This document shows positions 1 through 37,374 of a stretch of 38,983 bases of DNA, one piece after another; positions within the stretch are counted from its first letter, which is position 1, and each line of letters opens with the position of its first letter. The translations under genes and the position numbers were made by a program. Source of the DNA: an uncultured Agathobaculum sp. GTDB taxonomy: Bacteria > Bacillota > Clostridia > Oscillospirales > Butyricicoccaceae. The stretch spans positions 1-38,983 of the forward strand of contig CALWUJ010000017.1 in the NCBI GenBank assembly GCA_944384725.1. The letters run 5' to 3'. Below the pieces are notes generated by a model. That model did no database searches. It worked only from the letters and a program-made list of their open reading frames with translations, and was not told the DNA's origin.

Positions 1-680
1 AGTATCCTAGTCAGCGCATACGATTCCCAGGACGGGCCTAAAAATCCGTAGAAGGGCATATCGATGAAGTCTCTGGTGTTTGCTTCTTACGCCCAGTTTG
101 GGGTGGATGCTGGAGGTTAAGGCTTGCGGGCGCGCTTCAATGGCATGAAGTACCGACCCGCCTGCCGTGGAGACCCGCGACTGTCGGACACCTATAGCAT
201 CCCTTTTGGGGTTGATGGATGTCCAACGGCACGGGATGAAACCTGTATTGCGGTGCGGAGGAAGCTATGCGGTATACGCCAGCCTTTTGGCAGGTGGCCC
301 GCGTGGTGACCAAAACGCTGTGTGCAGTGTAGCCTGCCTTGCGTGGCCATGGTGGATATCGTATCCGCCTGCGGTTTCCCGGCCAGGAAAACGCGGGAAT
401 TGACGGTTGAAACCATGTCTGCAAAAGAGGCTAAGAATCGTGTTGCCTGCAGTGGAAATCACCTAGGCTATTCAGAAATGAGGCAGGCAGAGGATTGCAG
501 TGCGGACTCAGTGGCAATTCGGTCCCGGTGATGGTAACATCCCGGCACGGACTTTAATGGGAAACCCCCACGACGGCGACGCGTGGCAGTCCGCGGGGAA
601 AGCCAACCGAACCTCAAGCCGCAAGATTAACTCGGCCTGCCGTCACTTCTATTTGGATGGAACAACCGAAGGGTTTTAAC
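1..680 (+). ncRNA. ole: OLE RNA (large structured noncoding RNA), probably truncated at its 5' end by the window edge
   Basis: No open frame here has a ribosome binding site or a recognisable product, yet the stretch is full of nested stems. Examples: 186-190 with 220-224 enclosing 199-203 with 208-212; 525-528 with 542-545 followed, after a bulged T529, by 530-533 with 538-541 closed by a GTAA (GNRA) tetraloop; 549-553 with 588-592 enclosing 568-572 with 582-586. OLE RNA is known as a roughly 600-nt RNA of anaerobic and extremophilic Firmicutes, made from an operon with isoprenoid, argR and recN genes and lying directly before the gene for its membrane partner OapA; it has been linked to tolerance of alcohols, cold and Mg2+ stress. 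Length, position before an OapA-like gene and the dxs-tlyA-nadK-argR-recN order all match. I identify it by context and structure, not by a covariance model; the exact ends are unknown, the 3' end being placed before the oapA ribosome binding site. Confidence 0.8.
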
Positions 681-696
681 AATAAGGAGTATTTTT

Positions 697-1287
697 TTGG
701 AAGCATCCGATAAACCGAAAAAAAAGAACCAGCCGCCGCAAAAGCCGCGGCTGATTAACACCAAATGGGTGGCAACGATCATGCCGATCAGCTTTGTGCT
801 GTCGGTTGTGATGAGCTATATGTCGAATGAGGCGCTCAATAACGCGGGCACAATTTTGTCCTTTGTGGTGCTGTTTTTCTTTATCGCACTGGGCATCCTA
901 TTCGATATGATCGGCATTGCCGCGGCCTCCGCGACTGAGAAGGAATTCCACTCCATGGCGGCGCACCGCGTGCGCGGCGCAAAGGAAGCGGTGTGGATGA
1001 CCCGCAATGCGGAAAAGGTGTCGAGCATCTGCAACGACGTGGTCGGTGATATCTGCGGCATCATTTCCGGTGCAACGGGTGCGCTCATCGTCACCAACAT
1101 TACGGCTGGGATGAACGGTGTGCAGGTGGTACTGGTTTCGCTTCTGGTCACCGGATTGATCTCTGCCATGACGATCGGCGGCAAGGCTGCCGGTAAAGGT
1201 GTGGCGATGGCGTTTAGCAGCCGTGTGCTGGCCATCTGCGGACGGGTGTTGTCGGTGCTGCCGTTTTCGCTGGATAGCAAAAGATAG
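697..1287 (+). CDS. oapA: OapA-like integral membrane protein, OLE RNA partner
   Basis: A 196-residue protein with a lysine/proline-rich basic N-terminus (residues 6-18) and about four hydrophobic segments (roughly 25-42, 52-77, 114-136, 142-165). The middle has a charged stretch after segment two (FHSMAAHRVRGAKEA, 84-98) like that in CorB/CNNM-type membrane proteins, which is why such proteins are often labelled CorB-like. OapA is known to bind OLE RNA and bring it to the membrane. The start is TTG at 697, with AAGGAG at 684-689; no better start lies near. It directly follows the large RNA and precedes dxs, so RNA and protein probably share one transcript. The identification rests on size, membrane topology, basic tail and place; function in this organism is inferred. 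Confidence 0.75.
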   Translation: MEASDKPKKKNQPPQKPRLINTKWVATIMPISFVLSVVMSYMSNEALNNAGTILSFVVLFFFIALGILFDMIGIAAASATEKEFHSMAAHRVRGAKEAVWMTRNAEKVSSICNDVVGDICGIISGATGALIVTNITAGMNGVQVVLVSLLVTGLISAMTIGGKAAGKGVAMAFSSRVLAICGRVLSVLPFSLDSKR

Positions 1288-1315: not shown

Positions 1316-3187
1316 ATGAAAAGATACGGAATTCTGGACAATATTACAAGCCCCGCGGACTTGCGCGGATTGTCTTACGACACGCTCGGTGTGCTGTGTG
1401 CTTCGCTGCGCGAATTTATCGTCGATTCGGTTTCGCGCACGGGCGGCCATCTGGCTTCCAATCTGGGTGTTGTAGAGCTGGCTGTCGCGTTGGAGCGGGA
1501 GTTCGATTCCTCGCGTGACCGCATCATTTACGACGTAGGACACCAGAGTTATGTCCATAAGATTCTGACCGGCCGCCGTGACCGCTTTGATACATTGCGG
1601 CAATACGGCGGTCTTTCCGGTTTCATGAAGCCGGAGGAGAGCATTGCCGATCCTTGCGTGACCGGACATGCTTCGGATTCGGTGTCGGTGGCGCTGGGTA
1701 TGGCGCATGCCCGTACGCTGAAAAATCAGAAATATCATGTGGTTGCCGTCATTGGAGACGGTGCGCTGACTGGCGGCATGGCTTATGAGGCGCTCAGCAA
1801 CGCCGGCACATCGGGCGAACCGCTTCTGGTGGTGCTGAACGACAATAACATGTCCATTGCGCAGAATGTCGGCGGGCTGAGCCGGCATTTGTCGCGTCTG
1901 CGCGTCAGTCCGCGCTATCTGCATGCCAAAGTGCGTGTCAAGGAACGGCTGGCCCGTATCCCGGGCGGCCGTGCGGTTTCGCGTGTGATTTCGCGGATGA
2001 AGGCGCGCATGAAAGGACTGCTGTTGCCGACCTCTCTGTTTGAGCAGATGGGATTTATTTACCTTGGCCCGGTCGATGGACATGACCTGAAAAGCGTGTG
2101 TGAGCTGCTTTCGCAGGCAAAAAAGATCAAAAAGCCGGTGCTGTTGCATGTGATGACGCAAAAGGGCCGCGGCTATGCGCCGAGTGAGCGCGAGCCGGAG
2201 AAATACCACGGCGTTTCGCCGTTCGACCCGCTCACGGGTGCGTTTCAGGCGGGCAAGAAAGAGGATTTTTCCGCTTGTTTCGGTCGGGAATTATGTGCGT
2301 TCGCGGAAAAGGACGCGCGTATCTGTGCGATCACGGCGGCAATGCCCTCGGGCACGGGGCTGACGCGGTTTGCGTCCCGTTTTCCCGACCGCTTTTTTGA
2401 CGTCGGCATTGCCGAGGAGCACGCGGTCGCCATGGCGGCCGGTATGGCGGCACAGGGCTTGGTGCCTGTGGTTGCCATGTATTCGACCTTTTTGCAGCGC
2501 GCTTATGACCAAATGGTGCATGATGTGGCGATTGAAAGACTGCATGTTGTGTTCTGTGTGGACCGTGCAGGCATCGTTGGTGCGGATGGCGCAACGCATA
2601 ACGGCGTGCTGGATGTAGCGTTTTTGCGCTCGATTCCGGGCGTGAAAATTTTCTGCCCGTCGAATTTTGCCGAACTGCGCAGCATGATGTCGCGTGCGCT
2701 GTATCATGAAAGTGGACCGGTTGCGATCCGCTATCCGCGCGGCGGCGAGGGTGCGTTCCGAAAGGATACGGCAGGCGAGACGATTGCCTGCGTGCGTGAG
2801 ACAACAGGCCGCGAGGTGACGCTGCTGACGCACGGTGCACTCGTCAATGAAGTGATTGCCGCAGCCGATATTCTGGAGAAAAAAGGTGTACACGCACAGG
2901 TCTGCAAGGTAAACGAGATCAGCGACGCGCTGGCAAAAGCCTTTCTCGCGCGGGAGGATGTGCGTTCCGGCTGGTGTGTGGTCGTCGAGGATGTGGTGGA
3001 AAGCGGCGGCTTGGGTGAATGGGTAGCTGCTCACCGGGATGGCCGCGTGGACTGCCTGAATACCGGAGACCGGTTCCTGCCGCATGGTGGTGTGAGTGAC
3101 GTATACCGTCATTGCGGCATTGATGCGGAAGGCATCGCTTCGTTTGTTATCAAAAACCGAAAGGGAAAGGAAAACGACCTTGGCTAA
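1316..3187 (+). CDS. dxs: 1-deoxy-D-xylulose-5-phosphate synthase
   Basis: A 623-residue thiamine-diphosphate enzyme that condenses pyruvate and glyceraldehyde-3-phosphate to DXP, the first step of the MEP isoprenoid pathway, in the cytoplasm. The TPP/Mg2+ motif GDGALTGGMAYEALSNAG is at 147-164 with NDNNMS at 175-180, and the catalytic glutamate region EEHA at 367-370. The frame stays open upstream to 1199, inside oapA, but ATG at 1316 gives the usual family length and the normal N-terminus; a GGTGGG stretch lies just before it. It lies 28 bases after oapA and its last bases overlap tlyA, so it is inside the OLE operon, as in other OLE-bearing Firmicutes. Confidence 0.97.
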   Translation: MKRYGILDNITSPADLRGLSYDTLGVLCASLREFIVDSVSRTGGHLASNLGVVELAVALEREFDSSRDRIIYDVGHQSYVHKILTGRRDRFDTLRQYGGLSGFMKPEESIADPCVTGHASDSVSVALGMAHARTLKNQKYHVVAVIGDGALTGGMAYEALSNAGTSGEPLLVVLNDNNMSIAQNVGGLSRHLSRLRVSPRYLHAKVRVKERLARIPGGRAVSRVISRMKARMKGLLLPTSLFEQMGFIYLGPVDGHDLKSVCELLSQAKKIKKPVLLHVMTQKGRGYAPSEREPEKYHGVSPFDPLTGAFQAGKKEDFSACFGRELCAFAEKDARICAITAAMPSGTGLTRFASRFPDRFFDVGIAEEHAVAMAAGMAAQGLVPVVAMYSTFLQRAYDQMVHDVAIERLHVVFCVDRAGIVGADGATHNGVLDVAFLRSIPGVKIFCPSNFAELRSMMSRALYHESGPVAIRYPRGGEGAFRKDTAGETIACVRETTGREVTLLTHGALVNEVIAAADILEKKGVHAQVCKVNEISDALAKAFLAREDVRSGWCVVVEDVVESGGLGEWVAAHRDGRVDCLNTGDRFLPHGGVSDVYRHCGIDAEGIASFVIKNRKGKENDLG

Positions 3188-3977
3188 AAAACGTTTGGAT
3201 GTATTGCTGTTTGAAAAAGGGCTTTGTCCTTCACGGGAGCGCGCAAAGACAGCAATTATGGAAGGCATTGTCTATATTGCCGGGCAAAAAGCAGGAAAAG
3301 CGGGCGATATGGTGGATGAAAACGCCGAACTGGAAGTGCGCGGCAACGAAAATGCTTTTGTTTCCCGCGGCGGCAAAAAAATCGAGAAGGCGCTCGACTA
3401 TTTTTCGATCGACCCGGCGGGGCTGGTCGTGATGGACGTGGGTGCATCCACCGGCGGTTTTACCGATTGTCTGCTGCGCCGCGGTGCGGTCAAGGTTTAT
3501 TCGATCGACGTCGGCTATGGACAGCTGGCATGGAGCTTGCGCCAAGATCCGCGCGTCAAGTGCATGGAACGCACCAATATCCGCTATGTGACCCCGGAAA
3601 TGCTCGAGGAAACGCCGAGCCTGTGCGTGATTGACGTATCGTTTATTTCTTTGCGTCTGGTGCTGCCGGTCGTTTCCGGTTTGCTGACCGAAAACGGTCG
3701 TGTGGCGTGCCTGATTAAGCCGCAGTTTGAAGCGGGAAAAGGCAAGGTCGGCAAAAAAGGCGTGGTGCGCGAGCCGGAGATCCATTTGGGAGTGCTCGAG
3801 CAGTTTGTGGAAAATGCGCATACGGCAGGCTTCGCCGTGCAGGATATCACATTCTCGCCCATCAAGGGACCGGAAGGAAATATCGAGTTTTTGGGCTACT
3901 TATGGAAGCAGGGAGAGGACAGCGTGCCGGACCTGCGCGAGATTGTGCGGCAGGCACACGAGGAATTGGATGGCTGA
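3180..3977 (+). CDS. tlyA: TlyA family S4-domain RNA 2'-O-methyltransferase
   Basis: A 265-residue protein with an N-terminal S4 RNA-binding domain (about 3-62) and an FtsJ-like Rossmann methyltransferase domain; the SAM-binding glycine-rich motif DVGASTGGFTDCL and the later KPQFEAGKGKVGKKG segment are clear. TlyA proteins methylate ribose positions in 16S and 23S rRNA; some relatives are called haemolysins for historical reasons. The start is TTG at 3180, overlapping the end of dxs by eight bases, with AAAGGAAA just upstream; it gives the standard N-terminus AKKRLDVLLFEKGL. The stop overlaps the nadK start, so translation is probably coupled. Confidence 0.93.
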   Translation: MAKKRLDVLLFEKGLCPSRERAKTAIMEGIVYIAGQKAGKAGDMVDENAELEVRGNENAFVSRGGKKIEKALDYFSIDPAGLVVMDVGASTGGFTDCLLRRGAVKVYSIDVGYGQLAWSLRQDPRVKCMERTNIRYVTPEMLEETPSLCVIDVSFISLRLVLPVVSGLLTENGRVACLIKPQFEAGKGKVGKKGVVREPEIHLGVLEQFVENAHTAGFAVQDITFSPIKGPEGNIEFLGYLWKQGEDSVPDLREIVRQAHEELDG

Positions 3978-4833
3978 GACAGCAATGAAGCGTTTTTTTA
4001 TCTATCCCAACATGCGAAAAGAGGGGGCATATGCCGTACTGCCGCAGGTCTGTGATCGCTTGCAGCGAGAAGGCGTTCGGCTGATGCTGCCTATGCAGAT
4101 GCGGTCGGCGGCGCTGGGGCTGGACGGCGTGGATTATATGGAAACCGGAGATGCAGTGCAGTTTGCCGATCTGGCGGTCGTGCTGGGCGGCGACGGAACC
4201 ATGCTGCGTCTGGCACGCGCGGCGGCGCAGCAGGAGTTGCCCATGCTGGGCATCAATGTCGGGCATGTCGGGTTCATGACCGAACTGGAGCCGGGCGAGC
4301 TGGACAGGATGGAAAAACTCTTCAGCGGTGATTATACGATCGACAGCCGTATGATGCTGCATGTGGCGGTCTATCGGCAGGGACGGCTGGTTTATGAAAA
4401 CGATGCGCTCAACGACATTGTGCTGGCCAAAGGTACGGCTTTCCGTGTGGTGCGCGTGTGCATTTCAGCAGATGACGAGGAAGTGACACAGTTTAACGGT
4501 GACGGTCTGATTGTCGCCACGCCAACCGGGTCGACAGCTTACGGCTTGTCCGCCGGCGGGCCGGTGATCGAGCCGAGCGCAGAAAATCTGGCGGTCATCC
4601 CGATTTGTGCGCATGCATTGGCGGCAAAGGCGTTTGTGTTTGCACCGGAGCGGCGCATTGCGCTTTCTGCGGCCTGCGAAGGCGGCAGCGAGGTGTTCCT
4701 TTCCGCGGACGGCGGGCAGGGCTTTGCCATCCGTCCGGATGACCGGGTGGAGATCACGCGCTCACCGCTTCGCACCCGTTTGGTGCGGCTGAAGGGAATC
4801 AGCTTTTATAAAATATTGCAGAAAAAGCTCTGA
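3970..4833 (+). CDS. nadK: NAD kinase
   Basis: A 287-residue cytoplasmic enzyme that phosphorylates NAD to NADP. The signature GGDGTMLRLAR (NAD kinase GGDGT motif), NVGHVGFMTELE and the PTGSTAYGLSAGGP motif are all present. The start ATG at 3970 overlaps the tlyA stop and has GAGG just upstream; an alternative ATG at 3985 would remove five residues. NADPH supply suits a neighbour of dxs, since later MEP-pathway steps consume it. NAD kinase next to tlyA, argR and recN is the common Firmicutes arrangement. Confidence 0.96.
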   Translation: MAETAMKRFFIYPNMRKEGAYAVLPQVCDRLQREGVRLMLPMQMRSAALGLDGVDYMETGDAVQFADLAVVLGGDGTMLRLARAAAQQELPMLGINVGHVGFMTELEPGELDRMEKLFSGDYTIDSRMMLHVAVYRQGRLVYENDALNDIVLAKGTAFRVVRVCISADDEEVTQFNGDGLIVATPTGSTAYGLSAGGPVIEPSAENLAVIPICAHALAAKAFVFAPERRIALSAACEGGSEVFLSADGGQGFAIRPDDRVEITRSPLRTRLVRLKGISFYKILQKKL

Positions 4834-4847
4834 TAGGGGGCGCGAAT

Positions 4848-5303
4848 ATGAAATTTCAAAGACAGGCAAAAATCCTCGAATTGATCGACCGGTTTGAGAT
4901 TGAGACACAGGAGGATCTGACCGCTCATCTGCGGGCGTATGGCTATAATACCACGCAGGCGACGGTCTCGCGCGATATCAAGGAGTTGCGGCTGATTAAG
5001 TCGCTTTCTGCGGAAACCGGTAAATATAAGTACACCGCGGCGTCTGGTGGTACGGCGGACAGCTTCACCACGCGCTTGCGCAATATCTTCCGCGAATGCG
5101 TCACGGAGATCGCTGCTGCGCAGAACATGGTGGTTATCAAGACATTGCCCGGCTTGGGGCAGGCGGCTGCCATGGCGATTGATGCGATGCGTGGCACGGA
5201 TGTGGTCGGCACGCTTGGCGGAGACGATACCGTGTTTGCGGTGATGCGCGATAATGAGAGCGCGGCGCGCTTTTGCCAACAGGCGCAGGACATTCTAAAG
5301 TAA
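4848..5303 (+). CDS. argR: Arginine repressor ArgR
   Basis: A 151-residue transcription factor with an N-terminal winged helix (about 1-70, with the recognition segment TQATVSRDIKEL) and a C-terminal hexamerisation and arginine-binding domain carrying the GDDTVFAV motif. ArgR binds L-arginine and represses arginine biosynthesis or activates catabolism. A GGGGG-rich ribosome site precedes ATG 4848. ArgR is a standard member of the OLE-linked operon and of the recN region in Firmicutes. No arginine genes lie in the window, so its targets are elsewhere. Confidence 0.96.
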   Translation: MKFQRQAKILELIDRFEIETQEDLTAHLRAYGYNTTQATVSRDIKELRLIKSLSAETGKYKYTAASGGTADSFTTRLRNIFRECVTEIAAAQNMVVIKTLPGLGQAAAMAIDAMRGTDVVGTLGGDDTVFAVMRDNESAARFCQQAQDILK

Positions 5304-5322: not shown

Positions 5323-7002
5323 ATGCTGCAATTACTCCATATTGAAAATATCGCAGTCATCGAACGGGCGGACATCGAACTGGAAAACGGTTTGACCGTA
5401 TTGTCCGGTGAGACCGGCGCAGGTAAGTCGATTGTGATCGACTCAATTGGCGCGATTTTGGGCAAACGGGTCAGTCGTGATCTGGTGCGTGCAGGCGCAC
5501 AAAAGGGCTTTGTCAGCGCGGTGTTCACCGATCTTTCGGCGGGGCTTACCAGCTTGCTCGACGAGTTGGCGCTCACGGGTGACGAGCCGGATACGCTGCA
5601 TTTGCAGCGGCAGATCACAGCGGACGGCAAAAGCACCTGCCGGGTCAATATGAAGCCGGTGTCTGCTGCGGTGCTGCGGCAGCTGGCGCCGTATTTGATT
5701 GATATTCATGGCCAAAACGATGGTCAGAAGCTGCTGGATGAACAGCATCACATTGACTATCTGGATGGATATGCCGGGTTGGATGCGCTGCTGGCGAAGT
5801 ACTGTCCCAAATATCAGTCGCTGCTCGCGCTGCGGCGCGAAATCACTGCGCTCGAAACCGGTGAGCAGGAGCGTTTGCAGCGCATTGACATGCTTTCTTT
5901 CCACAAAGAGGAAATTGAGCAGGCGGCACTCCAGCCGGACGAGGACGAGACACTGGCGCAGCGCAAAGCATATTTCGACCACGCGGGCAAGATTGCAGGG
6001 GCGCTCGAGCAGGTGCGGCTTGCGCTGAACGGAGATGACGAGGTCGGCGGCGCATGCGCGCTGCTCGATCAGGCGGCAGCGGCACTGGCTGGACTGCATG
6101 AAGTGTCGGATGCATTTGACGCCATGGCGGAACAGGCTGAGGAGGTGCGCTTGCTCGCGGCAGATTTGCGGGATAATGTGGTCAGCCGCAGCGAGAATCT
6201 GGATTTTTCATCAGCCGAGCGCGAATGGGTCGAGCAGCGGCTCGACCTGATCTACCGACTCAAGCAGAAATACGGCGGCACGCTCGAGGAAATTGCTGCC
6301 TACCATGCACGCATCACGGCGGAGCTGGACACACTTGCTGATTCAGACAACAGACGCGAAGAACTGCGCGAGCGATACCGTGCGGAACTTGCTGAGGCAA
6401 AGCAGTTGGCTGCCCAGATTTCAGAGAAACGGCGTCAGGCAGCTGCACGTCTGGAAAAGGCGATCGTGCGGGAGTTGTCGGAGCTGGATATGGACAAGGT
6501 CAAGATGCGCGTAGCGGTGCACACAGGTACCAAACTTGCGGCGCATGGTTTCGACACGGTCACATTTGAGATTTCGGTCAATCCCGGTGAGCCGGAAAAA
6601 CCGCTCTCCAAGGTTGCGTCCGGCGGTGAGCTGAGCCGCATCATGCTGGCACTCAAAAACGTCTTGACGGCGGGCGAGGATGTTGGTATGCTGATTTTCG
6701 ACGAGATCGACACCGGCGTTTCCGGCCATGCTGCGCAGCAGATCGCGCGCAAGCTGTCTGCGATCGCAAAGAAAAAGCAGACGTTGTGCGTTACGCATCT
6801 GCCGCAGATCGCAGCGATGGGCGACCACCATCTGCGCATTGCCAAATCCGTGCGGGAGGGACGCAGCTATACCGATGTCAGTCCGATGAACCGGGTGCAG
6901 CGCGTGGATGAGATCGCGCGGCTGCTGTCCGGCGAGCAGATCTCGGATGCGGCGCGCCGCAATGCTGAGGAACTGCTGGGAGCGGCCGGACAGGAGGACT
7001 AA
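5323..7002 (+). CDS. recN: DNA repair protein RecN
   Basis: A 559-residue SMC-like ATPase that acts at double-strand breaks in recombinational repair. Walker A GETGAGKS is at 29-36; the central part is a long coiled coil (about 150-380) rich in Glu, Gln and Arg; the ABC signature SGGELSRIML and Walker B LIFDEIDTG are in the last third. Length is normal. GGGGAGGAAG precedes ATG 5323. It is the last large gene of the OLE-oapA-dxs-tlyA-nadK-argR-recN run. Confidence 0.97.
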   Translation: MLQLLHIENIAVIERADIELENGLTVLSGETGAGKSIVIDSIGAILGKRVSRDLVRAGAQKGFVSAVFTDLSAGLTSLLDELALTGDEPDTLHLQRQITADGKSTCRVNMKPVSAAVLRQLAPYLIDIHGQNDGQKLLDEQHHIDYLDGYAGLDALLAKYCPKYQSLLALRREITALETGEQERLQRIDMLSFHKEEIEQAALQPDEDETLAQRKAYFDHAGKIAGALEQVRLALNGDDEVGGACALLDQAAAALAGLHEVSDAFDAMAEQAEEVRLLAADLRDNVVSRSENLDFSSAEREWVEQRLDLIYRLKQKYGGTLEEIAAYHARITAELDTLADSDNRREELRERYRAELAEAKQLAAQISEKRRQAAARLEKAIVRELSELDMDKVKMRVAVHTGTKLAAHGFDTVTFEISVNPGEPEKPLSKVASGGELSRIMLALKNVLTAGEDVGMLIFDEIDTGVSGHAAQQIARKLSAIAKKKQTLCVTHLPQIAAMGDHHLRIAKSVREGRSYTDVSPMNRVQRVDEIARLLSGEQISDAARRNAEELLGAAGQED

Positions 7003-16362: not shown

Positions 16363-18021
16363 ATGAAAGAAAAACTGAAGATTATACCGCTCGGTGGTCT
16401 CAATGAGATCGGCAAGAATATGACGGTCATCGAATATGGCAATGATATTCTGGTAATCGACTGCGGCGTTGCGTTCCCGGATGATGATATGCTGGGTGTG
16501 GATCTGGTAATCCCGGATACCACCTACCTCAAGCGCAATCTCAACAAACTGCGTGGTTATGTCATCACGCACGGCCATGAGGACCACATTGGCGCGATCC
16601 CGTATGTTCTGCGTGAGTGCAATGCGCCGATTTATGCGACCCGCCTGACATGCGGCATCATTGAGACCAAACTCAGTGAGCATAAGATGCCGCAGAAGGT
16701 CAAGCTCAACCGTGTGCGCGCGGGCGACACGATCAAGCTGGGCTGCTTTAAGGTAGAATTCATCCACACGAACCACTCGATTGCGGATTCGGTGGCGCTG
16801 GCGATCACGACACCGCTGGGTACCATCCTGCACACGGGTGACTTTAAGATTGACCTGACGCCGGTTTCGGGCGAGATGATCGATCTGGTGCGTATTGGTG
16901 AGCTGGGCAAGAAGGGTATCCTTGCCCTGATGAGCGATTCGACGAACGTGGAGCGCCCGGGTTACACGCCGAGTGAAAAAATCGTGGGCAAGTCACTCGA
17001 GAAGTTCATCATGGAGAGCGATCAGCGCATCATTATTGCGACCTTCGCATCCAACGTATCACGCTTGCAGCAGATTCTGGACATTGCGGCCAAGACGGGA
17101 CGTAAGGTTGCCGTATGCGGTCGCAGTATGGAGAAGATCTCCAAGGTTGCGGGTGAGCTGGGGTATCTGAGAGATACCGGCAAGGTGATGATCGATATTT
17201 CCGAGATCAAGCGCTATGCACGCAGCCAGCTGATTATTGTATCCACCGGTTCACAGGGTGAGACGATGTCGGCTCTGTACCGCATGGCTTACGGCAGCCA
17301 TAAGCAGGTTGAGGTCAATGCGGGCGACCGCATCTTGATTGCGGCTTCTGCAATCCCCGGCAATGAGAAGTCGATCAACAATATGGTCAATGAACTGTAT
17401 AAGCAGGGGGCGGAGGTCATTTACGACCGCTCTGCTGCAATCCATGTATCCGGCCATGCCTGCCAGGAGGATCTGAAGCTGATGCTGGGTCTGTGCAAGC
17501 CGAAATATTTTATTCCGGTGCATGGTGAATACCGTATGCTGATGCAGCATGCGGGTCTGGCACGTGAGATGGGCGTCAATCCGAAAAATGTATTGATTAC
17601 CGAAATCGGCCGTCCGGTAGAAATCAGCGAAAACTCTGCTCGTTTGGGCAATCCCGTGCCGGCGGGTCGCTTGCTGGTCGATGGTCTGGGCATTGGCGAC
17701 GTAGGCACTGCGGTGCTGCGTGACCGCAAGCATCTGTCTGAGGATGGCTTGCTGGTTGTTGTAGTCACGGTGGACGCGACCACGGGCGTGGTCATTGCCG
17801 GTCCGGATATCGTTTCGCGTGGCTTTGTTTATGTCAAGGAGGCCGAGGCGCTGATGGAAGAGCTGCGCAACATTTCGCAGATGGCGCTCGACCGTTGCGC
17901 GATAGAGAATCTGCGCGATTGGAACAGCCTCAAGTCGGCAATCAAGGGCGACGTGAGCGATTATCTGTTCAAAAAGACCAAGCGCAGCCCGATGGTGCTG
18001 CCGATCATCATGGAAATTTAA
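16363..18021 (+). CDS. rnjA: Ribonuclease J
   Basis: A 552-residue metallo-beta-lactamase/beta-CASP nuclease with 5'-3' exonuclease and endonuclease activity on RNA, central to mRNA decay and rRNA maturation in Firmicutes. The zinc motif HGHEDH is at 70-75; HTGDF, STGSQGE and VHGEYRM follow, with the C-terminal domain at about 450-552. GGAAAGTG lies upstream of ATG 16363. It is a single gene with its own promoter, long leader and terminator. RNase J is known to autoregulate in some species, which would fit the leader, but this is inference. Confidence 0.97.
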   Translation: MKEKLKIIPLGGLNEIGKNMTVIEYGNDILVIDCGVAFPDDDMLGVDLVIPDTTYLKRNLNKLRGYVITHGHEDHIGAIPYVLRECNAPIYATRLTCGIIETKLSEHKMPQKVKLNRVRAGDTIKLGCFKVEFIHTNHSIADSVALAITTPLGTILHTGDFKIDLTPVSGEMIDLVRIGELGKKGILALMSDSTNVERPGYTPSEKIVGKSLEKFIMESDQRIIIATFASNVSRLQQILDIAAKTGRKVAVCGRSMEKISKVAGELGYLRDTGKVMIDISEIKRYARSQLIIVSTGSQGETMSALYRMAYGSHKQVEVNAGDRILIAASAIPGNEKSINNMVNELYKQGAEVIYDRSAAIHVSGHACQEDLKLMLGLCKPKYFIPVHGEYRMLMQHAGLAREMGVNPKNVLITEIGRPVEISENSARLGNPVPAGRLLVDGLGIGDVGTAVLRDRKHLSEDGLLVVVVTVDATTGVVIAGPDIVSRGFVYVKEAEALMEELRNISQMALDRCAIENLRDWNSLKSAIKGDVSDYLFKKTKRSPMVLPIIMEI

Positions 18022-21513: not shown

Positions 21514-23598
21514 ATGAAAAAACGGTTGTTATCCGCTTTCGTATGCATGGCTATGCTGACGGCAATGCTTCCGTTTGCTTCCGCTGCATCGGATTTGGAG
21601 GGGCACTGGGCAAAAACTTACATTGAATACCTTGACCGGGAAGGCGTTATCAATCCGAGTGCAACAACGGGAAAATATGAGCCGGACCGCGATATGACTC
21701 GTGCGGAATTCATGCGATATATCAATCGTGCATTCCATTTTACGGAAATGACAGCGATTTCTTATACGGACGTACCGAAGAACGCCTGGTATTATGACAC
21801 CATACGGATTGCGCAAAAGTATGGATATATCAACGGCGTGGGTGACAACAAAATGGATCCGGAAGGGAAGGTCACGCGCGAACAGGCTGCGGTCATTATC
21901 GGCCGTTTGTTCAAGTCTGATCCCGGCAATGTCTCTCCCTCTGACCTGACGTTTACCGACCGCGATGAGATTGCCGAATGGAGCGCGGGCTACATTAAGG
22001 CTGCGGCGGACAAAGGCTTTCTGGCAGGCTATTCGGATGGTTCTTTCCAGCCCAATCGCGTGGTAACGCGCGGCGAAGTTGCAAAAATCCTGTATTACTA
22101 TTTGGGCACTTCGCTGTCCACTGCGGGCAAAGCATACACAGGAGCCGATCTGAAAACCGACACCACGAACGTCACGATTTCGGAAAGCTGCTCGCTGTCC
22201 GATGCAACGATCGAAGGCGATCTGTACATTACGGAAGGGCTTGGCTCTGACTCCGTTACGCTGAATAATGTAACGGTTAAGGGCTCTGTTATCGTGTCCG
22301 GCGGTACGGTTACAATGATGAATACGTCGAGCGATCATATGATCGTTTCGTCACCCATGGCGCGCCTGCTGCAGGTTACTGCAACGGGCGCTGCTCGCAT
22401 CAGGAAGACTGAGGTGCAGTCTGCGGCAGCACTGCACGAAACAGCTTTGGCTACAGCGAAAGACAGTGGCTTTTCTGAGGTCGTGGTAAACGCCGAAGAG
22501 CGGGTTTCCCTGACGCTGGATGCGAATGTGGATCAGCTTACCCTTGTTGGAGAGAGCACGGTCAGCACCACCGCGAACACGCAGATTTATCAAATGACGG
22601 TGGAAAAGGCGGCTTCCGTCACCGGCTACGGCTCGGTCTATCAGGCTGATATCCAGATAGATGGCGTGAGCTTTGCCAGCAGTGTGGCGGTATCCGGATA
22701 TGCAATGGCAAACGGCGTTTCGGCAACCATCGGCGGCAAGTCGGTGAGCGGTGTCAATACGGCCGGGATAGTGCCTGAAAGCATCACGGTGGATTTGGCC
22801 AATCCCTCCGCGCTGGGAAGCGAGGTAACGGTCAATGTGCCGAATGGCTTGACCGTATCTTCGGTTTTTAATAACGGATATACGCTGAAAGAATCTTCGG
22901 ATTATACAAAAACGGCTTCCGGTATTACGATTTCAACCTCTTATTTGACTTCGCTTGCCAAAGGAAACTACACCTTGTCGCTTTCGTTCTCCGGCGGTCG
23001 GCGCGAAAGCATTGCGCTTTCTGTTATTAACTCTCAGGAGGATGCACAGTTGCAGGCGGTCTATTTTGACCGGTATTATCGTGCAAGCAGTTTTCAGGAT
23101 GTGCGTGTGAAGCTGAAAGATGTGCTATCGGAAAGTGATATCATAAATGTGGTTTTGGGATTTTCCGATATTGATTATGAATTTGACAATGTGAATCGTT
23201 CACTGGTGCTGCGCCGCGGTGTGTTGGCACAGTTGCGGACAGGCACCTATACGGTTTCGGCGGATCTTAAGAATGGCGGCAGCAGCACGTTCAACCTGAC
23301 GGTGATGGACTCCACGCCGGCTGGGATGCATGCGTATGTTGCAGAATATAATACATATGCGCCGACGGAGCCAAGCTTTGCGTTGCCGCTCAGCAGTCTG
23401 ACCATAAACAGTGTGACAGCAACACAGAATGGCGAAACAACCGAACTTGAGGCTGGTGCGGATTACACAACGTCAGCGCATTCGTTGACATTGACTAAGA
23501 CGGGATTGGAAGAATTCCGGCAGACGGGCGGGCTGGTAGAGTTTACCGTGACGATGAGTGATGATTCGGTTTACACGCTGGTGATTGACTACATTTGA
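21514..23598 (+). CDS. S-layer homology (SLH) domain surface protein
   Basis: A 694-residue secreted protein. Signal peptide 1-25 (cleavage after ASA). Three SLH domains at about 27-70, 84-131 and 147-193, which normally bind pyruvylated wall polymers. Residues about 205-415 are Ser/Thr/Val-rich with short beta-strand repeats (TIEGDLYITEG, TVKGSVIVSGG), suggesting a beta-helix or solenoid. The region about 420-510 resembles an X2-like immunoglobulin fold, and two more beta-rich modules follow at about 510-600 and 600-694. No catalytic motif is seen, so it is structural or adhesive rather than an enzyme. AAGGGG precedes ATG 21514. Codon use is slightly more AT-rich than in its neighbours. Confidence 0.9.
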   Translation: MKKRLLSAFVCMAMLTAMLPFASAASDLEGHWAKTYIEYLDREGVINPSATTGKYEPDRDMTRAEFMRYINRAFHFTEMTAISYTDVPKNAWYYDTIRIAQKYGYINGVGDNKMDPEGKVTREQAAVIIGRLFKSDPGNVSPSDLTFTDRDEIAEWSAGYIKAAADKGFLAGYSDGSFQPNRVVTRGEVAKILYYYLGTSLSTAGKAYTGADLKTDTTNVTISESCSLSDATIEGDLYITEGLGSDSVTLNNVTVKGSVIVSGGTVTMMNTSSDHMIVSSPMARLLQVTATGAARIRKTEVQSAAALHETALATAKDSGFSEVVVNAEERVSLTLDANVDQLTLVGESTVSTTANTQIYQMTVEKAASVTGYGSVYQADIQIDGVSFASSVAVSGYAMANGVSATIGGKSVSGVNTAGIVPESITVDLANPSALGSEVTVNVPNGLTVSSVFNNGYTLKESSDYTKTASGITISTSYLTSLAKGNYTLSLSFSGGRRESIALSVINSQEDAQLQAVYFDRYYRASSFQDVRVKLKDVLSESDIINVVLGFSDIDYEFDNVNRSLVLRRGVLAQLRTGTYTVSADLKNGGSSTFNLTVMDSTPAGMHAYVAEYNTYAPTEPSFALPLSSLTINSVTATQNGETTELEAGADYTTSAHSLTLTKTGLEEFRQTGGLVEFTVTMSDDSVYTLVIDYI

Positions 23599-31337: not shown

Positions 31338-32672
31338 ATGGAACTGAAAAACACGGAAAAGCAGGAGCACAGCGTCGTTGCGCTGACTATCGAGATCACC
31401 AAGGCAGAGTTTGAGGCTGCCAAGGACAAGGCGTTCAAGAAGACCGGCAAGAACATCACGGTTCCGGGCTTCCGCAAGGGCAAGGCACCCCGCAAGATGA
31501 TCGAAAAGCTGTATGGCGAAGGCGTGTTCTTTGAAGAGGCTTTCAATATCATATATCCTGAGGCTATGGAAATGGCCGTTGAGAAGTCCGGCATCAAGCC
31601 GGTTGGCCGTGCGGACGTTGATCTGGGCGATCCGGCGGAAGAGGGCGGCCTGACCATTATCGCCAAGGTTCCGGTTGAGCCGGAGGTTGAGCTGGGCGAG
31701 TACAAGGGCATCGAGGTCGAAAAGGAGACCGTTAAGGTTCTGGCAGCAGACGTAAAGGCTGAGCTGAACCGTCTGGCACAGCGCAACGCGCGCACCGAGA
31801 CCGTTGACCGCAAGGCAAAGAAGAACGATACCGTTGATATCGATTTCGAGGGCTTTGTGGATGGCGTTGCCTTTGAGGGCGGCAAGGCAGAGCATCATGC
31901 ACTGACGCTGGGCTCCGGTTCCTTTATCCCGGGCTTTGAGGATCAGCTGATCGGCTGCAAGGCAGGCGACGAGAAGGACGTTGTCGTTACCTTCCCGGAA
32001 GATTACCATGCCAAGGAACTGGCTGGCAAGGAAGCTGTGTTTAAGTGCAAGGTACACAAGGTAGAAGAGACCATCCTGCCGGACATGGACGACGAGTTCG
32101 CAAAGGACGTTTCCGAGACCTGCGAGACGCTGGATGACCTGAAGAAGGAGATCTCTGACCGTCTGAAGAAGGAGCGCCAGGAAGCGGCAGACCACGCTTT
32201 TGAGGAAAAGGTGCTGGATGCTGTGATCGCAAACCTCAAGGCGGATATCCCGCAGGCGATGATCGAGAATCAGATCGACTCCATCGTTCAGGATTTCCGT
32301 TACCGCGTTCAGATGCAGGGCATGACGCTGGAGCAGTACCTGACCATGACCGGCACCGAGATGGGTGCATTCCGCGCAATGTTCAAGGATCAGGCAGAGC
32401 GTCAGGTTAAGATCCGTCTGGCACTGGAAAAGGTTGCAGAACTGGAGTCCATCGCAGTTTCCGACAAGGAAATGGAAGAGGAATATGCTAAGATGGCAGA
32501 GCAGTACAAGATGGATGTGGAAAAGGTCAAGTCCATCGTATCTGCTGAGGCGCTGAGCGGCGATCTGAAGATCTCCAATGCGCTGGAGTTCCTGAAGAAG
32601 AATGCCAAGGTCAAGAAGGCATCTTCTAAGAAGAAGGCGGACGAAGAAGCGGCCGAGGAATCTGTGGAGTAA
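31338..32672 (+). CDS. tig: Trigger factor (ribosome-associated chaperone)
   Basis: A 444-residue chaperone that binds nascent chains at the ribosomal exit tunnel. The ribosome-binding signature GFRKGKAP is at 44-51, the FKBP-like prolyl isomerase domain at about 155-240, and the helical C-terminal domain ends in a Lys/Glu-rich tail (about 415-444). AAGGAG precedes ATG 31338. The order tig-clpP-clpX-lon-engB is a common one for protein quality control. Confidence 0.97.
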   Translation: MELKNTEKQEHSVVALTIEITKAEFEAAKDKAFKKTGKNITVPGFRKGKAPRKMIEKLYGEGVFFEEAFNIIYPEAMEMAVEKSGIKPVGRADVDLGDPAEEGGLTIIAKVPVEPEVELGEYKGIEVEKETVKVLAADVKAELNRLAQRNARTETVDRKAKKNDTVDIDFEGFVDGVAFEGGKAEHHALTLGSGSFIPGFEDQLIGCKAGDEKDVVVTFPEDYHAKELAGKEAVFKCKVHKVEETILPDMDDEFAKDVSETCETLDDLKKEISDRLKKERQEAADHAFEEKVLDAVIANLKADIPQAMIENQIDSIVQDFRYRVQMQGMTLEQYLTMTGTEMGAFRAMFKDQAERQVKIRLALEKVAELESIAVSDKEMEEEYAKMAEQYKMDVEKVKSIVSAEALSGDLKISNALEFLKKNAKVKKASSKKKADEEAAEESVE

Positions 32673-32706
32673 TCCGTTTCCCGTCTGCATGTTCAGTTAA
32701 TAGAAG

Positions 32707-32759
32707 CCAGCCGCAATGCGGCTGGTTTCACTAAAAGCGCGAGCTTTGCCCGCGCTTTT
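32707..32759 (+). terminator. Double terminator after tig
   Basis: Two hairpins in tandem: an eight-pair stem (32707-32714 with 32718-32725) followed by TTT, and a nine-pair stem (32733-32741 with 32751-32759) ending in TTTTAT. Confidence 0.8.
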
Positions 32760-32895
32760 ATCACAGGTCAAAGACGGCGGGAGAAGCGTTTTTCTGCTGC
32801 CTTTGCGCGCGATTGCCCTTTTTGCTGTGAGCCGAAAAGGGTGTTACTCGATGAGAAATATGGTTTTCATCGAATTCTCGAAAGGAGTTTTCCAA

Positions 32896-33477
32896 GTGAG
32901 TTTAGTCCCAATGGTCATCGAACAGACCGGCCGCGGTGAGCGTTCGTTCGATATTTATTCCCGTCTGCTCAATGACCGCATTGTGATGCTGTGCGAGGAG
33001 GTCAATGATACGACTGCTTCGCTGGTTGTGGCGCAGCTTTTGTATCTGGAAGCGCAGGACCCCGATAAGGATATTTCCTTGTATATCAACAGTCCGGGCG
33101 GTTCGGTTACGGCAGGCATGGCGATTTACGACACCATGAATTATATCAAGTGCGACGTTTCGACCATCTGCATTGGCATGGCGGCATCTATGGGCGCGTT
33201 TTTGCTGTCCTCGGGCGCAAAGGGAAAGCGTTATGCGCTGCCCAATGCGGAAATTATGATCCATCAGCCGTCTGCCGGTACGCAGGGACAGATTACCGAT
33301 ATGGCCATTCATCTCAAGCGCCTTGAGATTATCAAGAAGCGGATGAACAAGATTTTGTCGGAAAACACCGGCAAGCCGATCGAAGTGGTCACTGCGGACT
33401 GCGAACGCGATAACTTCATGTCCGCAGAAGAAGCGGTGGAATACGGCCTGATCGACAAGGTATTCGATAAGCATTGA
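32896..33477 (+). CDS. clpP: ATP-dependent Clp protease proteolytic subunit
   Basis: A 193-residue serine protease subunit forming the 14-mer that partners ClpX. The catalytic triad is Ser98 (GMAASMGAF), His123 (MIHQP) and Asp172. The start is GTG at 32896 with AAAGGAGTT at 32881-32889; it gives the family N-terminus [21 protein letters not shown]. An upstream in-frame ATG (32851-32853 region) lacks a well-placed ribosome site. The promoter is not clear; a lone CtsR-like half-site at 32766 is noted separately. Confidence 0.97.
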
Positions 33478-33501
33478 CGAATTGCAGGGTAGAGGTGCCA
33501 A

Positions 33502-34818
<1,317 letters not shown>

Positions 34819-34830
34819 AACAACATAAAA

Positions 34831-34865
34831 ACGTGGGGGAACCATGGGTTTCACCCACGTTTTTT
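34831..34865 (+). terminator. Terminator after clpX
   Basis: A 13-base-pair stem (34831-34843 with 34848-34860), loop ATGG, then TTTTT. Confidence 0.92.
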
Positions 34866-34887
34866 GTCATATGGCGTACGTCGATGC

Positions 34888-34916
34888 TTTACAAACCGCG
34901 AAAAATATACTATACT
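34888..34916 (+). promoter_or_regulatory. Promoter of lon-engB
   Basis: TTTACA (34888-34893), 17-base spacer, TATACT (34911-34916). No CIRCE or CtsR palindrome is seen beside it. Confidence 0.8.
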
Positions 34917-34956
34917 GACTCTATCTAATTATTTTTCCGCGTGTGAGGAGAGAACT

Positions 34957-37374
34957 ATGATACAAACAATCAGGGGAGAGCTCAAGCGGCTGCCGGTGCT
35001 GCCGTTGCGCGGCTTGACTGCCTTTCCCCATATGATTATCCATTTTGACGTTGGCCGCATGATGTCGATTCGTGCGCTGGAAGCGTCAATGAAGAGCGGC
35101 CAGATGATTTTTCTGACCGCGCAGCGCGAACTGAAAACCGATACGCCTGCGCCGGGTGATTTGTACCAGATCGGCGCGGTATGCATGGTACGGCAGATTT
35201 TGCGTTTGCCGGGCGATAATATCCGGGTGCTGGTGGAGGGACGCAGCCGCGCGCTGGCGCATCAGTTCACAGCGCCGGAAAAGGAAGGCGACTGCATTTT
35301 TGCCGAGATCGAGGAGTTGGACGACTATGTGATCGGTGTGACCGAGCGGCGCGCGCAGGCACTTGTGCGCACGGCACAGGAGCGGTTTGCCGAGTATGCC
35401 GAGTATGCCAGCCGCATTTCGCAGGACGTAGAGATGACGGTTGCCGAGGGCGGCGAACCGGGATGGCTGGCGGACTATATCGCGCAAAACTTGCCGGTCG
35501 AGGTCGAGGCGAAGCAGGAGATACTCGAGGAACTCAATGTCACGCGCCGTCTGGCGATGGTCATTCGACTGCTGGGAGAGGAAACCGAAATCCTCAAGAT
35601 CGAAAACGAGATTCAAGATGAGCTGAAAACGCAGATCGACAAAAATCAGCGGGAATACTATCTGCGCGAGCAGATCAAGGTGATTCAGAGCGAGCTGGGC
35701 GAGCAGGATGTCGCCGCAGAGGCGGAAGCCTATCGCAAGCGCGTGCTCGATCTGCATCTGCCGCAGGAGTGTGAGGACAAGCTCATCCACGAGGTTGATC
35801 GCTTTGCCAAGCTGAGTGGTTCCAATGCAGAGCAGGGGGTCGTGCGCACCTATCTGGACACGGTGCTGGATTTGCCGTGGAACAAAAAGAGCGAGGAACG
35901 TCTGGATTTGGCTGAGGCACAGGCGATTCTGGACCGCGATCATTACGGCTTGAAGAAGGTCAAGGAACGCATTATGGAGTTTCTGGCAGTCAAGACGCTT
36001 GCGCCTGAACTGCGCGGGCAGGTTTTATGTCTGGTTGGCCCTCCGGGCGTGGGCAAGACCTCGATCGCAAAATCCATTGCACAGGCGATGGGACGCAATT
36101 ATGCGCGCATGAGTCTGGGCGGCGTGCGGGATGAGGCGGATATCCGCGGACACCGCAAGACGTATATCGGTGCGATGCCCGGACGGATCATGGATGCTCT
36201 GCGCCGTGCGGGAACGTCTAATCCGCTGCTTTTGCTGGACGAGATTGATAAGATGGGCAACGATTTTCGCGGTGATCCGGCAGCAGCCATGCTGGAGGTG
36301 CTGGACACGGAGCAGAATGTTGCTTTCCGCGATCATTATATTGAGCTGCCGTTTGACTTGTCGGACGTTCTGTTCCTGACAACAGCAAATGATTTGTCCA
36401 CTGTGCCGCGTCCGCTGCTGGACCGTATGGAGGTCATTGAGCTGTCCTCTTATACTGAAGAGGAGAAGCGTCAGATTGCGCTGCATCATCTGCTGCCCAA
36501 GCAAATGGAAAAGCATGGGCTGCACAAGGGACAGCTTGTAATCTCTGAGAAGATGCTGGGACTGGTGATTTCTCGCTATACGCGCGAAGCCGGTGTGCGC
36601 CGTCTGGAACAGGTGTTGGCGAAACTCTGCCGAAAGGCGGCGAAGCATATCGCTGATGGTGGACGGCGGCTGACGGTATCGGAGAAAAATCTTGAGGAAT
36701 TGCTGGGCGTTGCGCGCTACAAGGACGATGTTGTGACCAAAAAGGACGAGGTCGGTATTGTCAATGGTCTTGCGTGGACCAGTGTCGGCGGCGAAATGCT
36801 GGAGGTTGAGGTCGCAGTTGTCCCCGGTACGGGCAAGATCGAAGTGACCGGCAATCTGGGCACGGTCATGCAGGAGAGCGCCAAGGCTGCGGTGACGTTT
36901 GTTCGTTCGCGGGCTGATGCGCTTTCCATTGATCCCATGTTTTATAAGGACAACGATCTGCACATCCATTTCCCGGAGGCTGCCGTGCCGAAGGACGGCC
37001 CTTCGGCGGGCGTCACCATCACGACCGCGCTGGTTTCCGCGCTGACTGAAGCACCGGTGCGTCATGATGTGGCGATGACCGGTGAAGTTACGCTGCGCGG
37101 GCGCGTATTGCCGATCGGTGGCCTGCGTGAAAAAACCATGGCAGCCTATCGCGCCGGCATCCGTACCGTAGTCATCCCCAAGGAGAATGAGTCGGATTTG
37201 CAGGATATTGAGCCAGTAGTACGGGAAAAACTACAATTTGTCACAGCAGCGCATATGGATACAGTTATGGAAACGGCGATCGACTTTACACGCCGCCCCA
37301 GAAAAAGAAAGAAAACGACGCATAGTCCGGTTGCTCGGCAGACGGATACAGGGACAACGGCGGTGATGCAATGA
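34957..37374 (+). CDS. lon: ATP-dependent protease Lon
   Basis: An 805-residue AAA+ protease that degrades damaged and regulatory proteins. N-terminal LAN substrate domain (about 10-200), coiled linker, Walker A GPPGVGKT at 361-368, Walker B LLLLDEIDKM, and the C-terminal protease domain with the Ser-Lys dyad S683 (KDGPSAG) and K726 (REKTM). The last ~30 residues are basic and Thr-rich. The frame is open to 34864 upstream, but ATG 34957 follows GTGAGGAGAG and the promoter. It overlaps engB by four bases. Confidence 0.97.
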   Translation: MIQTIRGELKRLPVLPLRGLTAFPHMIIHFDVGRMMSIRALEASMKSGQMIFLTAQRELKTDTPAPGDLYQIGAVCMVRQILRLPGDNIRVLVEGRSRALAHQFTAPEKEGDCIFAEIEELDDYVIGVTERRAQALVRTAQERFAEYAEYASRISQDVEMTVAEGGEPGWLADYIAQNLPVEVEAKQEILEELNVTRRLAMVIRLLGEETEILKIENEIQDELKTQIDKNQREYYLREQIKVIQSELGEQDVAAEAEAYRKRVLDLHLPQECEDKLIHEVDRFAKLSGSNAEQGVVRTYLDTVLDLPWNKKSEERLDLAEAQAILDRDHYGLKKVKERIMEFLAVKTLAPELRGQVLCLVGPPGVGKTSIAKSIAQAMGRNYARMSLGGVRDEADIRGHRKTYIGAMPGRIMDALRRAGTSNPLLLLDEIDKMGNDFRGDPAAAMLEVLDTEQNVAFRDHYIELPFDLSDVLFLTTANDLSTVPRPLLDRMEVIELSSYTEEEKRQIALHHLLPKQMEKHGLHKGQLVISEKMLGLVISRYTREAGVRRLEQVLAKLCRKAAKHIADGGRRLTVSEKNLEELLGVARYKDDVVTKKDEVGIVNGLAWTSVGGEMLEVEVAVVPGTGKIEVTGNLGTVMQESAKAAVTFVRSRADALSIDPMFYKDNDLHIHFPEAAVPKDGPSAGVTITTALVSALTEAPVRHDVAMTGEVTLRGRVLPIGGLREKTMAAYRAGIRTVVIPKENESDLQDIEPVVREKLQFVTAAHMDTVMETAIDFTRRPRKRKKTTHSPVARQTDTGTTAVMQ

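Follow-up and report, generated by a model that had tools for sequence, protein, structure and literature searches.

A full-length-type OLE RNA beside oapA in an Agathobaculum of the gut

In this work, a stretch of 38,983 nucleotides from an uncultured Agathobaculum sp. was analysed (contig CALWUJ010000017.1 of assembly GCA_944384725.1, here G000:C17:1-38983 and hereafter the window; the source genome, G000, is 78% complete). In this gut member of the genus, the window very probably opens with a genuine OLE RNA of the full-length type and its partner OapA, and the identity of the element as OLE RNA is close to certain. The covariance model RF01071 (OLE) of Rfam matched window 1-662 on the forward strand with 436.1 bits and E 5.8e-125 (gathering score 50), and this was the sole Rfam match above gathering score across the whole window. 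A sequence-only reading of this DNA had proposed OLE RNA and OapA before a dxs-tlyA-nadK-argR-recN operon and had named a search with the OLE model as a check; the Rfam match, the motif and fold of OapA and the gene families of the operon all agree with that proposal.

OLE RNA and OapA at the contig start

The RF01071 alignment spans model 24-616 of 616 and is truncated at its 5' end because the window begins at the contig start, which falls inside OLE, so that the first 23 model positions are missing. P1 therefore has its 5' strand outside this contig; in relatives this strand is seen, mostly as GTGGCG or GTGACG, and it pairs with window 642-647, the 3' strand of P1. From this pairing the 3' boundary was placed at about 647, and the RNA would be about 654 nt long (window 1-647 plus 7 missing 5' bases present in relatives). 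The earlier estimate of at least 680 bases has to be lowered, as the ~690 nt are the entire intergenic stretch upstream of oapA and not the RNA. The H. halodurans OLE construct comprises 1-637 (PMC9723947), and the C. acetobutylicum OLE has 577 nt (PMC12286853).

P7, P8, P9 and the domain-2 hairpins are all present (the P13 hairpin was not singled out), which places the RNA in the full-length class and not in variant 1 or 2. The published 390-bit class cut-offs belong to a different covariance model and were not used for this assignment. The window agrees with the class as described by Fernando and Breaker (2024, PMC11332333) in sequence and structure along the full model, and also in having oapA as its neighbour; in the published variants P7-P9 are shortened, or P7 and P8 are lost, whereas P8 is here enlarged to 85 nt, the opposite trend.

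It is scarcely conceivable that this match stems from a coding stretch or from a fold arising by chance and not from a structured RNA. Six overlapping open reading frames of 61-95 amino acids do lie within 1-696 on both strands, but nothing supports coding (no protein-library comparison was made), the Rfam E-value already refutes this explanation, and the covariation described below is between RNA pairs.

The partner gene starts about 49 nt past the 3' end of OLE:

697..1287, + strand: oapA, 196 amino acids, initiated at TTG and preceded by AAGGAG; membrane protein of the CNNM-like type, carrying DxxxD

The product had been described as a basic four-helix membrane protein, and the net charge of +8 and the four long helices of the predicted model bear this out. 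D114 and D118 of the DxxxD motif are invariant in 36/36 proteins and the predicted fold is CNNM/CorB-like, which keeps the protein inside the OapA family; judging from motif and predicted fold, the product of 697-1287 is OapA. It is like H. halodurans OapA in DxxxD, four long helices, net basic charge and CNNM-like fold, a likeness by features and not by sequence comparison. The same CNNM transmembrane fold is found in MpfA and the CorB-CorC family of Mg2+ transporters. However, the profile scan of OapA gave no CBS or CorC_HlyC domain, both of which the MpfA of the same genome has. One relative holds a second OapA paralogue near a contig end (G041:C94:6644-7159, L088); its other copy adjoins OLE on contig C41.

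RNA structure, conserved contacts and the P8 arm

The sequence-only reading had seen many nested stems in the ~690-base gene-free stretch. With the Rfam structure copied onto the window, 138 of the 156 model pairs are standard. Free folding of 1-660 gave -266.1 kcal/mol against -247.0 (standard deviation 7.1) for 20 shuffles, none of which was equally stable (z -2.68), and by eye most of P2 to P9 was recovered by free folding of the window alone. Covariation was assessed on 38 OLE copies out of 47 (eight others had no extracted locus, and L012 was omitted as near-identical to L010). Over 175 pairs in 38 copies, standard pairing was observed in 89.0% of cells, and two-sided changes occurred at 114/175 pairs compared with 71.2 (standard deviation 3.8) in shuffles, so the compensatory changes that the reading had asked for are present. 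Structures slid along the alignment gave 36.7-42.7% of cells paired and 45-62 pairs with two-sided changes, although P2 and P3 were picked by eye on the same sequences and thus have some advantage over these controls. The pairing is imperfect in places: several model pairs in P5, P6, P7 and P9 are unpaired in most copies. The elements are as follows (all on the + strand; percentages are cells paired):

1..647: OLE RNA (RF01071), Rfam match; some 7 nt at the 5' end, with the 5' strand of P1, precede the contig start
6..10: P2 5' strand, pairing with 463-467 (palindromic CCUAG/CUAGG) by inspection; 97.4%
12..26: P3/P3.1 5' strand, 14 bp with 435-449 by inspection; two-sided changes at 13/14 pairs; 92.8%
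31..50: P4 hairpin; its loop is A-rich and 40-44 are invariant (Rfam structure, alignment, pair counts)
60..68: likely OapC k-turn site, 5' strand, with 119-122 (C62-G121, U61-G122)
70..116: P5/P5.1 stem-loop (Rfam structure, pair counts)
121..166: P6/P6.1, invariant loop AAUGGCAU at 139-146 (Rfam structure, alignment, pair counts)
174..235: P7, helix 174-191/219-235; 82.2%
243..327: P8, 12-bp base 243-255/316-327 and enlarged hairpin 256-315 (free folds, pair counts)
336..431: P9, palindromic GGCC loop 381-384 invariant (Rfam structure, alignment, pair counts)
435..449: P3/P3.1 3' strand (inspection, pair counts)
463..467: P2 3' strand (inspection, pair counts)
482..641: domain 2 long-range stems 482-492/631-641, 501-505/619-623 and 518-523/606-611; 95.0-99.6%
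525..545: GUAA-capped hairpin, loop 534-537; all 8 pairs changed two-sidedly in some sequence; 87.5%
546..595: two-storey stem, interrupted by an internal loop on one side; helices 546-553/588-595 and 567-575/580-587, 87.2% and 86.6%

The GUAA-capped hairpin stands exactly where it had been read from the letters. The two-storey stem reported at 549-592 is likewise real, but its limits needed correction to 546-595.

Four segments are invariant in 38/38 copies: A40-44 in the P4 loop, the P6.1 loop at 139-146, GGCC 381-384 in P9 and bases 60-68. Three bases of the P5.1 loop (G91, C93 and C94) never vary, and C92 of that loop is kept in at least 90% of the copies. The P4 and P9 GGCC loops are dimer contacts in published cryo-electron microscopy (cryo-EM) work, and an OapA site has been placed in or near P2 (PMC12265935). 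By our own mapping onto the published descriptions, the invariant loops and 60-68 would correspond to the dimer contacts and the OapC site (PMC12265935, PMC12286853, PMC9723947), the k-turn assignment at 60-68 being mapped onto PMC9723947.

Work on H. halodurans or by cryo-EM has described membrane anchoring by OapA, binding of OapB and OapC, and dimerisation (PMC9723947, PMC12265935, PMC12286853, PMC12054373, PMC10898510), and the roles reported for OLE lie in the balance of Mg2+ and Mn2+ and in stress from cold, ethanol and carbon (PMC12054373 and PMC10898510 among the sources). From the conserved parts, we give roughly even chances that this published mechanism operates in Agathobaculum. 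The RNA would then dimerise via the P4, P5.1/P6.1 and P9 loops and would be held at the membrane by OapA, while OapC would bind the k-turn and OapB domain 2. OapA may represent the CNNM-like membrane part and the RNA a scaffold replacing the cytoplasmic domains of MpfA-type transporters, and the complex may tune divalent-metal (Mg2+/Mn2+) balance and stress adaptation.

The same data bear on whether the copy is decaying or non-functional. The 18 non-standard pairs among the 156 of the window would fit decay, as would its score of 432-436 bits, which is the lowest in the genus among the genomes surveyed and partly reflects the 5' cut. On the other hand, the RNA is 94-97% identical to its four nearest relatives, the dimer-contact loops are intact and pairing holds in 89.0% of cells across the 38 copies, which makes decay most improbable.

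The strands of P3 measure 18-19 and 17-19 nt in the 38 RNAs despite two-sided change at 13/14 pairs, and P3/P3.1 is the helix elsewhere proposed as membrane-spanning. However, the constant length is only compatible with that proposal, because P4, P5 and P6 hold their lengths equally well. Among the copies P7 measures 48-63 nt and P8 28-103 nt. In most copies P8 folds freely as an extended hairpin on the 12-bp base; the exceptions are L019 and L021, in which the free fold breaks the base. In nine sequences (the window and eight relatives) 252/261 P8 cells are paired, and compensatory changes are sparse (2/29 pairs), so covariation in the extension is thin. From these lengths and folds, P8 appears to behave like an expansion segment.

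Occurrence, separation of ole from oapA, and MpfA

The survey covered 60 genomes including G000, namely 25 of this genus and 35 outside it, one per genus. OLE was found in 39/60 genomes and in 23/25 within the genus, where the two members without it are 78-81% complete. OapA was likewise found in 39/60; the two sets of genomes differ only in G033 and G034, likely because of a missing piece in the former and a contig end in the latter. The OapA query returned 30 named-genome loci, the top one being an uncultured Agathobaculum with 97%. Their labels are Agathobaculum, Butyricicoccus and Intestinibacillus, apart from one Eubacteriales bacterium and one Clostridiaceae bacterium, in agreement with the expected moderate-temperature Clostridia host; the three genera are gut mesophiles. 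Full-length OLE was present in 7/8 named genome records scanned, including Agathobaculum desmolans ATCC 43058, A. butyriciproducens DSM 100391, A. massiliense Marseille-P4005, Butyricicoccus faecihominis DFI.6.109 and Intestinibacillus massiliensis. The full-length OLE RNA class is reportedly the subject of work by Puerta-Fernandez from 2006.

The occurrence of OLE outside extremophiles, stressed by the sequence-only reading, is thus confirmed, but the weight given to it is not, since OLE had already been reported from 2,846 GTDB R214 assemblies, with anaerobes and uncultured gut clades among the hosts (PMC11332333). The RNA belongs to a well-known class and the find is mostly ordinary; in the open-licence literature searched, the genus Agathobaculum was not named beside OLE RNA.

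Candidates for the two other protein partners were found elsewhere in the source genome:

G000:C9:7582-7857: OapB candidate, flanked by frames that look by eye like map and infA; solved OapB 7k9b, E 7.5e-5
G000:C4:53405-53644: OapC candidate, after a frame read by eye as rpoC; solved YbxF, E 5.8e-10

The OapB candidate had no Pfam or NCBIfam match, and a KOW search of the genome did not list it. The OapC candidate scored 70.9 bits with the L7ae-like NCBIfam model PRK13602 against 19 for YlxQ, both under the cut-offs, and by these scores may be of the YbxF type rather than YlxQ. OapB was found in 44/60 genomes (33/39 OLE-bearing, 11/21 others) and OapC in 41/60 (30/39 and 11/21). OLE in viruses was considered and rejected: in IMG/VR, two exact OLE patterns matched 28 and 24 stretches, none of which had both motifs in OLE spacing (at most 3 mismatches each), and the OapA profile gave no relative, although divergent copies could escape either search.

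Many relatives keep the gene order xseA, ispA (with xseB presumed between), ole and oapA-dxs. In the sister genus g10 (12 genomes), OapA was found in 10/12 and OLE above cut-off in 8/12, and ole adjoins oapA in 3/8 of the latter (G060, G061, G063), being apart in 5/8. In G066 the two are 20 kb apart on a single contig. In G062, G064, G067 and G070 they are on different contigs, with 565-1555 nt available upstream of the OapA match without OLE and the only OLE over cut-off elsewhere. OLE still follows ispA in G062, G066 and G070; in G067 neither of the two genes, ispA and oapA, lies close to it. By eye, promoter-like sequence precedes oapA at the separated loci (L136-L139, L141), and in G060 a terminator-like hairpin and a promoter lie between ole and oapA. 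A separate observation is that in G064:C250:673-2271 (L147) OLE and ispA are on opposite strands and point towards each other, an arrangement not shared by the other loci seen with both, through inversion or misassembly. The differing contigs of G020 and G037 are contig-end effects and prove nothing about separation.

These loci bear on whether the RNA acts in cis, as a structured riboswitch- or attenuator-like leader of the oapA-dxs operon, instead of in trans as a component of a ribonucleoprotein. In the window about 49 nt separate the end of the RNA from oapA, and the RNA runs into the ribosome-binding site of that gene, as a leader might. However, the RNA still scores 458-476 bits in the g10 genomes where it is separated from oapA, which has its own promoter-like sequence there; a -35/-10 pair precedes OLE itself in 26/36 relatives against 1.59 expected from shuffles (the pattern was chosen post hoc), and the dimer-contact and k-turn bases are conserved. 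The separation and the promoter-like signal of OLE therefore favour a trans-acting RNA, as far as these sequence patterns go, and a leader is very improbable.

The data support separation of ole and oapA, not loss of OLE. OapA without OLE in G033 (99% complete, with oapA-dxs and further operon frames) was rejected as a case of loss: ispA, which precedes OLE in many relatives, was also not found, so the OLE piece is probably missing from the bin through an assembly gap. In its sister G069 a contig breaks off 102 nt into an OLE that follows ispA. In G068 (g10, 100% complete) OLE, OapA, ispA and MpfA were all not found, perhaps by real loss or a bin gap. No OLE was found in the 1,108 nt before the OapA match of L113 (Clostridiaceae bacterium strain 9), the only stretch examined there; in L113:1-1108, two frames lie before oapA-dxs, of which the first is pyridoxamine-oxidase-like by eye.

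MpfA was scored by a CorC_HlyC domain above cut-off. Outside the genus (35 genomes) it was found in 0/16 OLE-bearing genomes compared with 17/19 others (Fisher p 4e-8, only a guide because the genomes are related). The OLE-bearing G038 has a sub-threshold CorC_HlyC match, and the genomes with neither are G033 (the probable gap) and G040 (55% complete). This exclusion repeats, within one order, the anticorrelation already published (PMC11332333). Inside the genus MpfA is present in some genomes and not in others, and 14/23 OLE-bearing genomes have both. In G000 a complete MpfA (CNNM, CBS, CorC_HlyC; G000:C7:31363-32625, L080:2364-3626, - strand) coexists with the genes of the OLE complex. In g10 MpfA was found in 1/12 genomes, and the sole carrier, G064, has OLE. 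We hypothesize, as an idea that is more probably wrong than right by a wide measure, that in the gut lineage OLE has acquired work that the Mg2+ exporter MpfA does not replace. P8 would then be a fast-changing expansion arm (28-103 nt), perhaps specific to the lineage and serving docking or spacing, on an RNA of otherwise fixed length, with P3 kept at the length that a bilayer-spanning helix would need.

Operon neighbours and significance

After oapA and dxs, the window continues in the order tlyA-nadK-argR-recN:

1316..3187, +: dxs, TIGR00204, 682.8 bits (cut-off 465.95)
3186..3977, +: tlyA, TIGR00478, 276.8 bits (cut-off 185.8)
3979..4833, +: nadK, PF20143 and PF01513 above cut-off
4848..5303, +: argR, PF02863 and PF01316 above cut-off
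5323..7002, +: recN, TIGR00634, 521.2 bits (cut-off 407.85)

Farther along the contig are an RNase J gene (16363-18021), a protein with S-layer homology and CBM_X2 carbohydrate-binding domains (21514-23598) and, at 31338-37374, a row of Trigger factor, an unscanned frame (32716-33477), ClpX and Lon.

OLE counts as one of the largest structured RNAs of bacteria that have no known biochemical function, and in the papers cited here its published genetics rests on one alkaliphile, H. halodurans. The mixed carriage of MpfA in Agathobaculum and the separation of ole from oapA in the sister genus make the redundancy of OLE and MpfA, and action of the RNA in trans, testable in moderate-temperature anaerobes. 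These relatives are new places for probing the function of the OLE complex outside extreme habitats.
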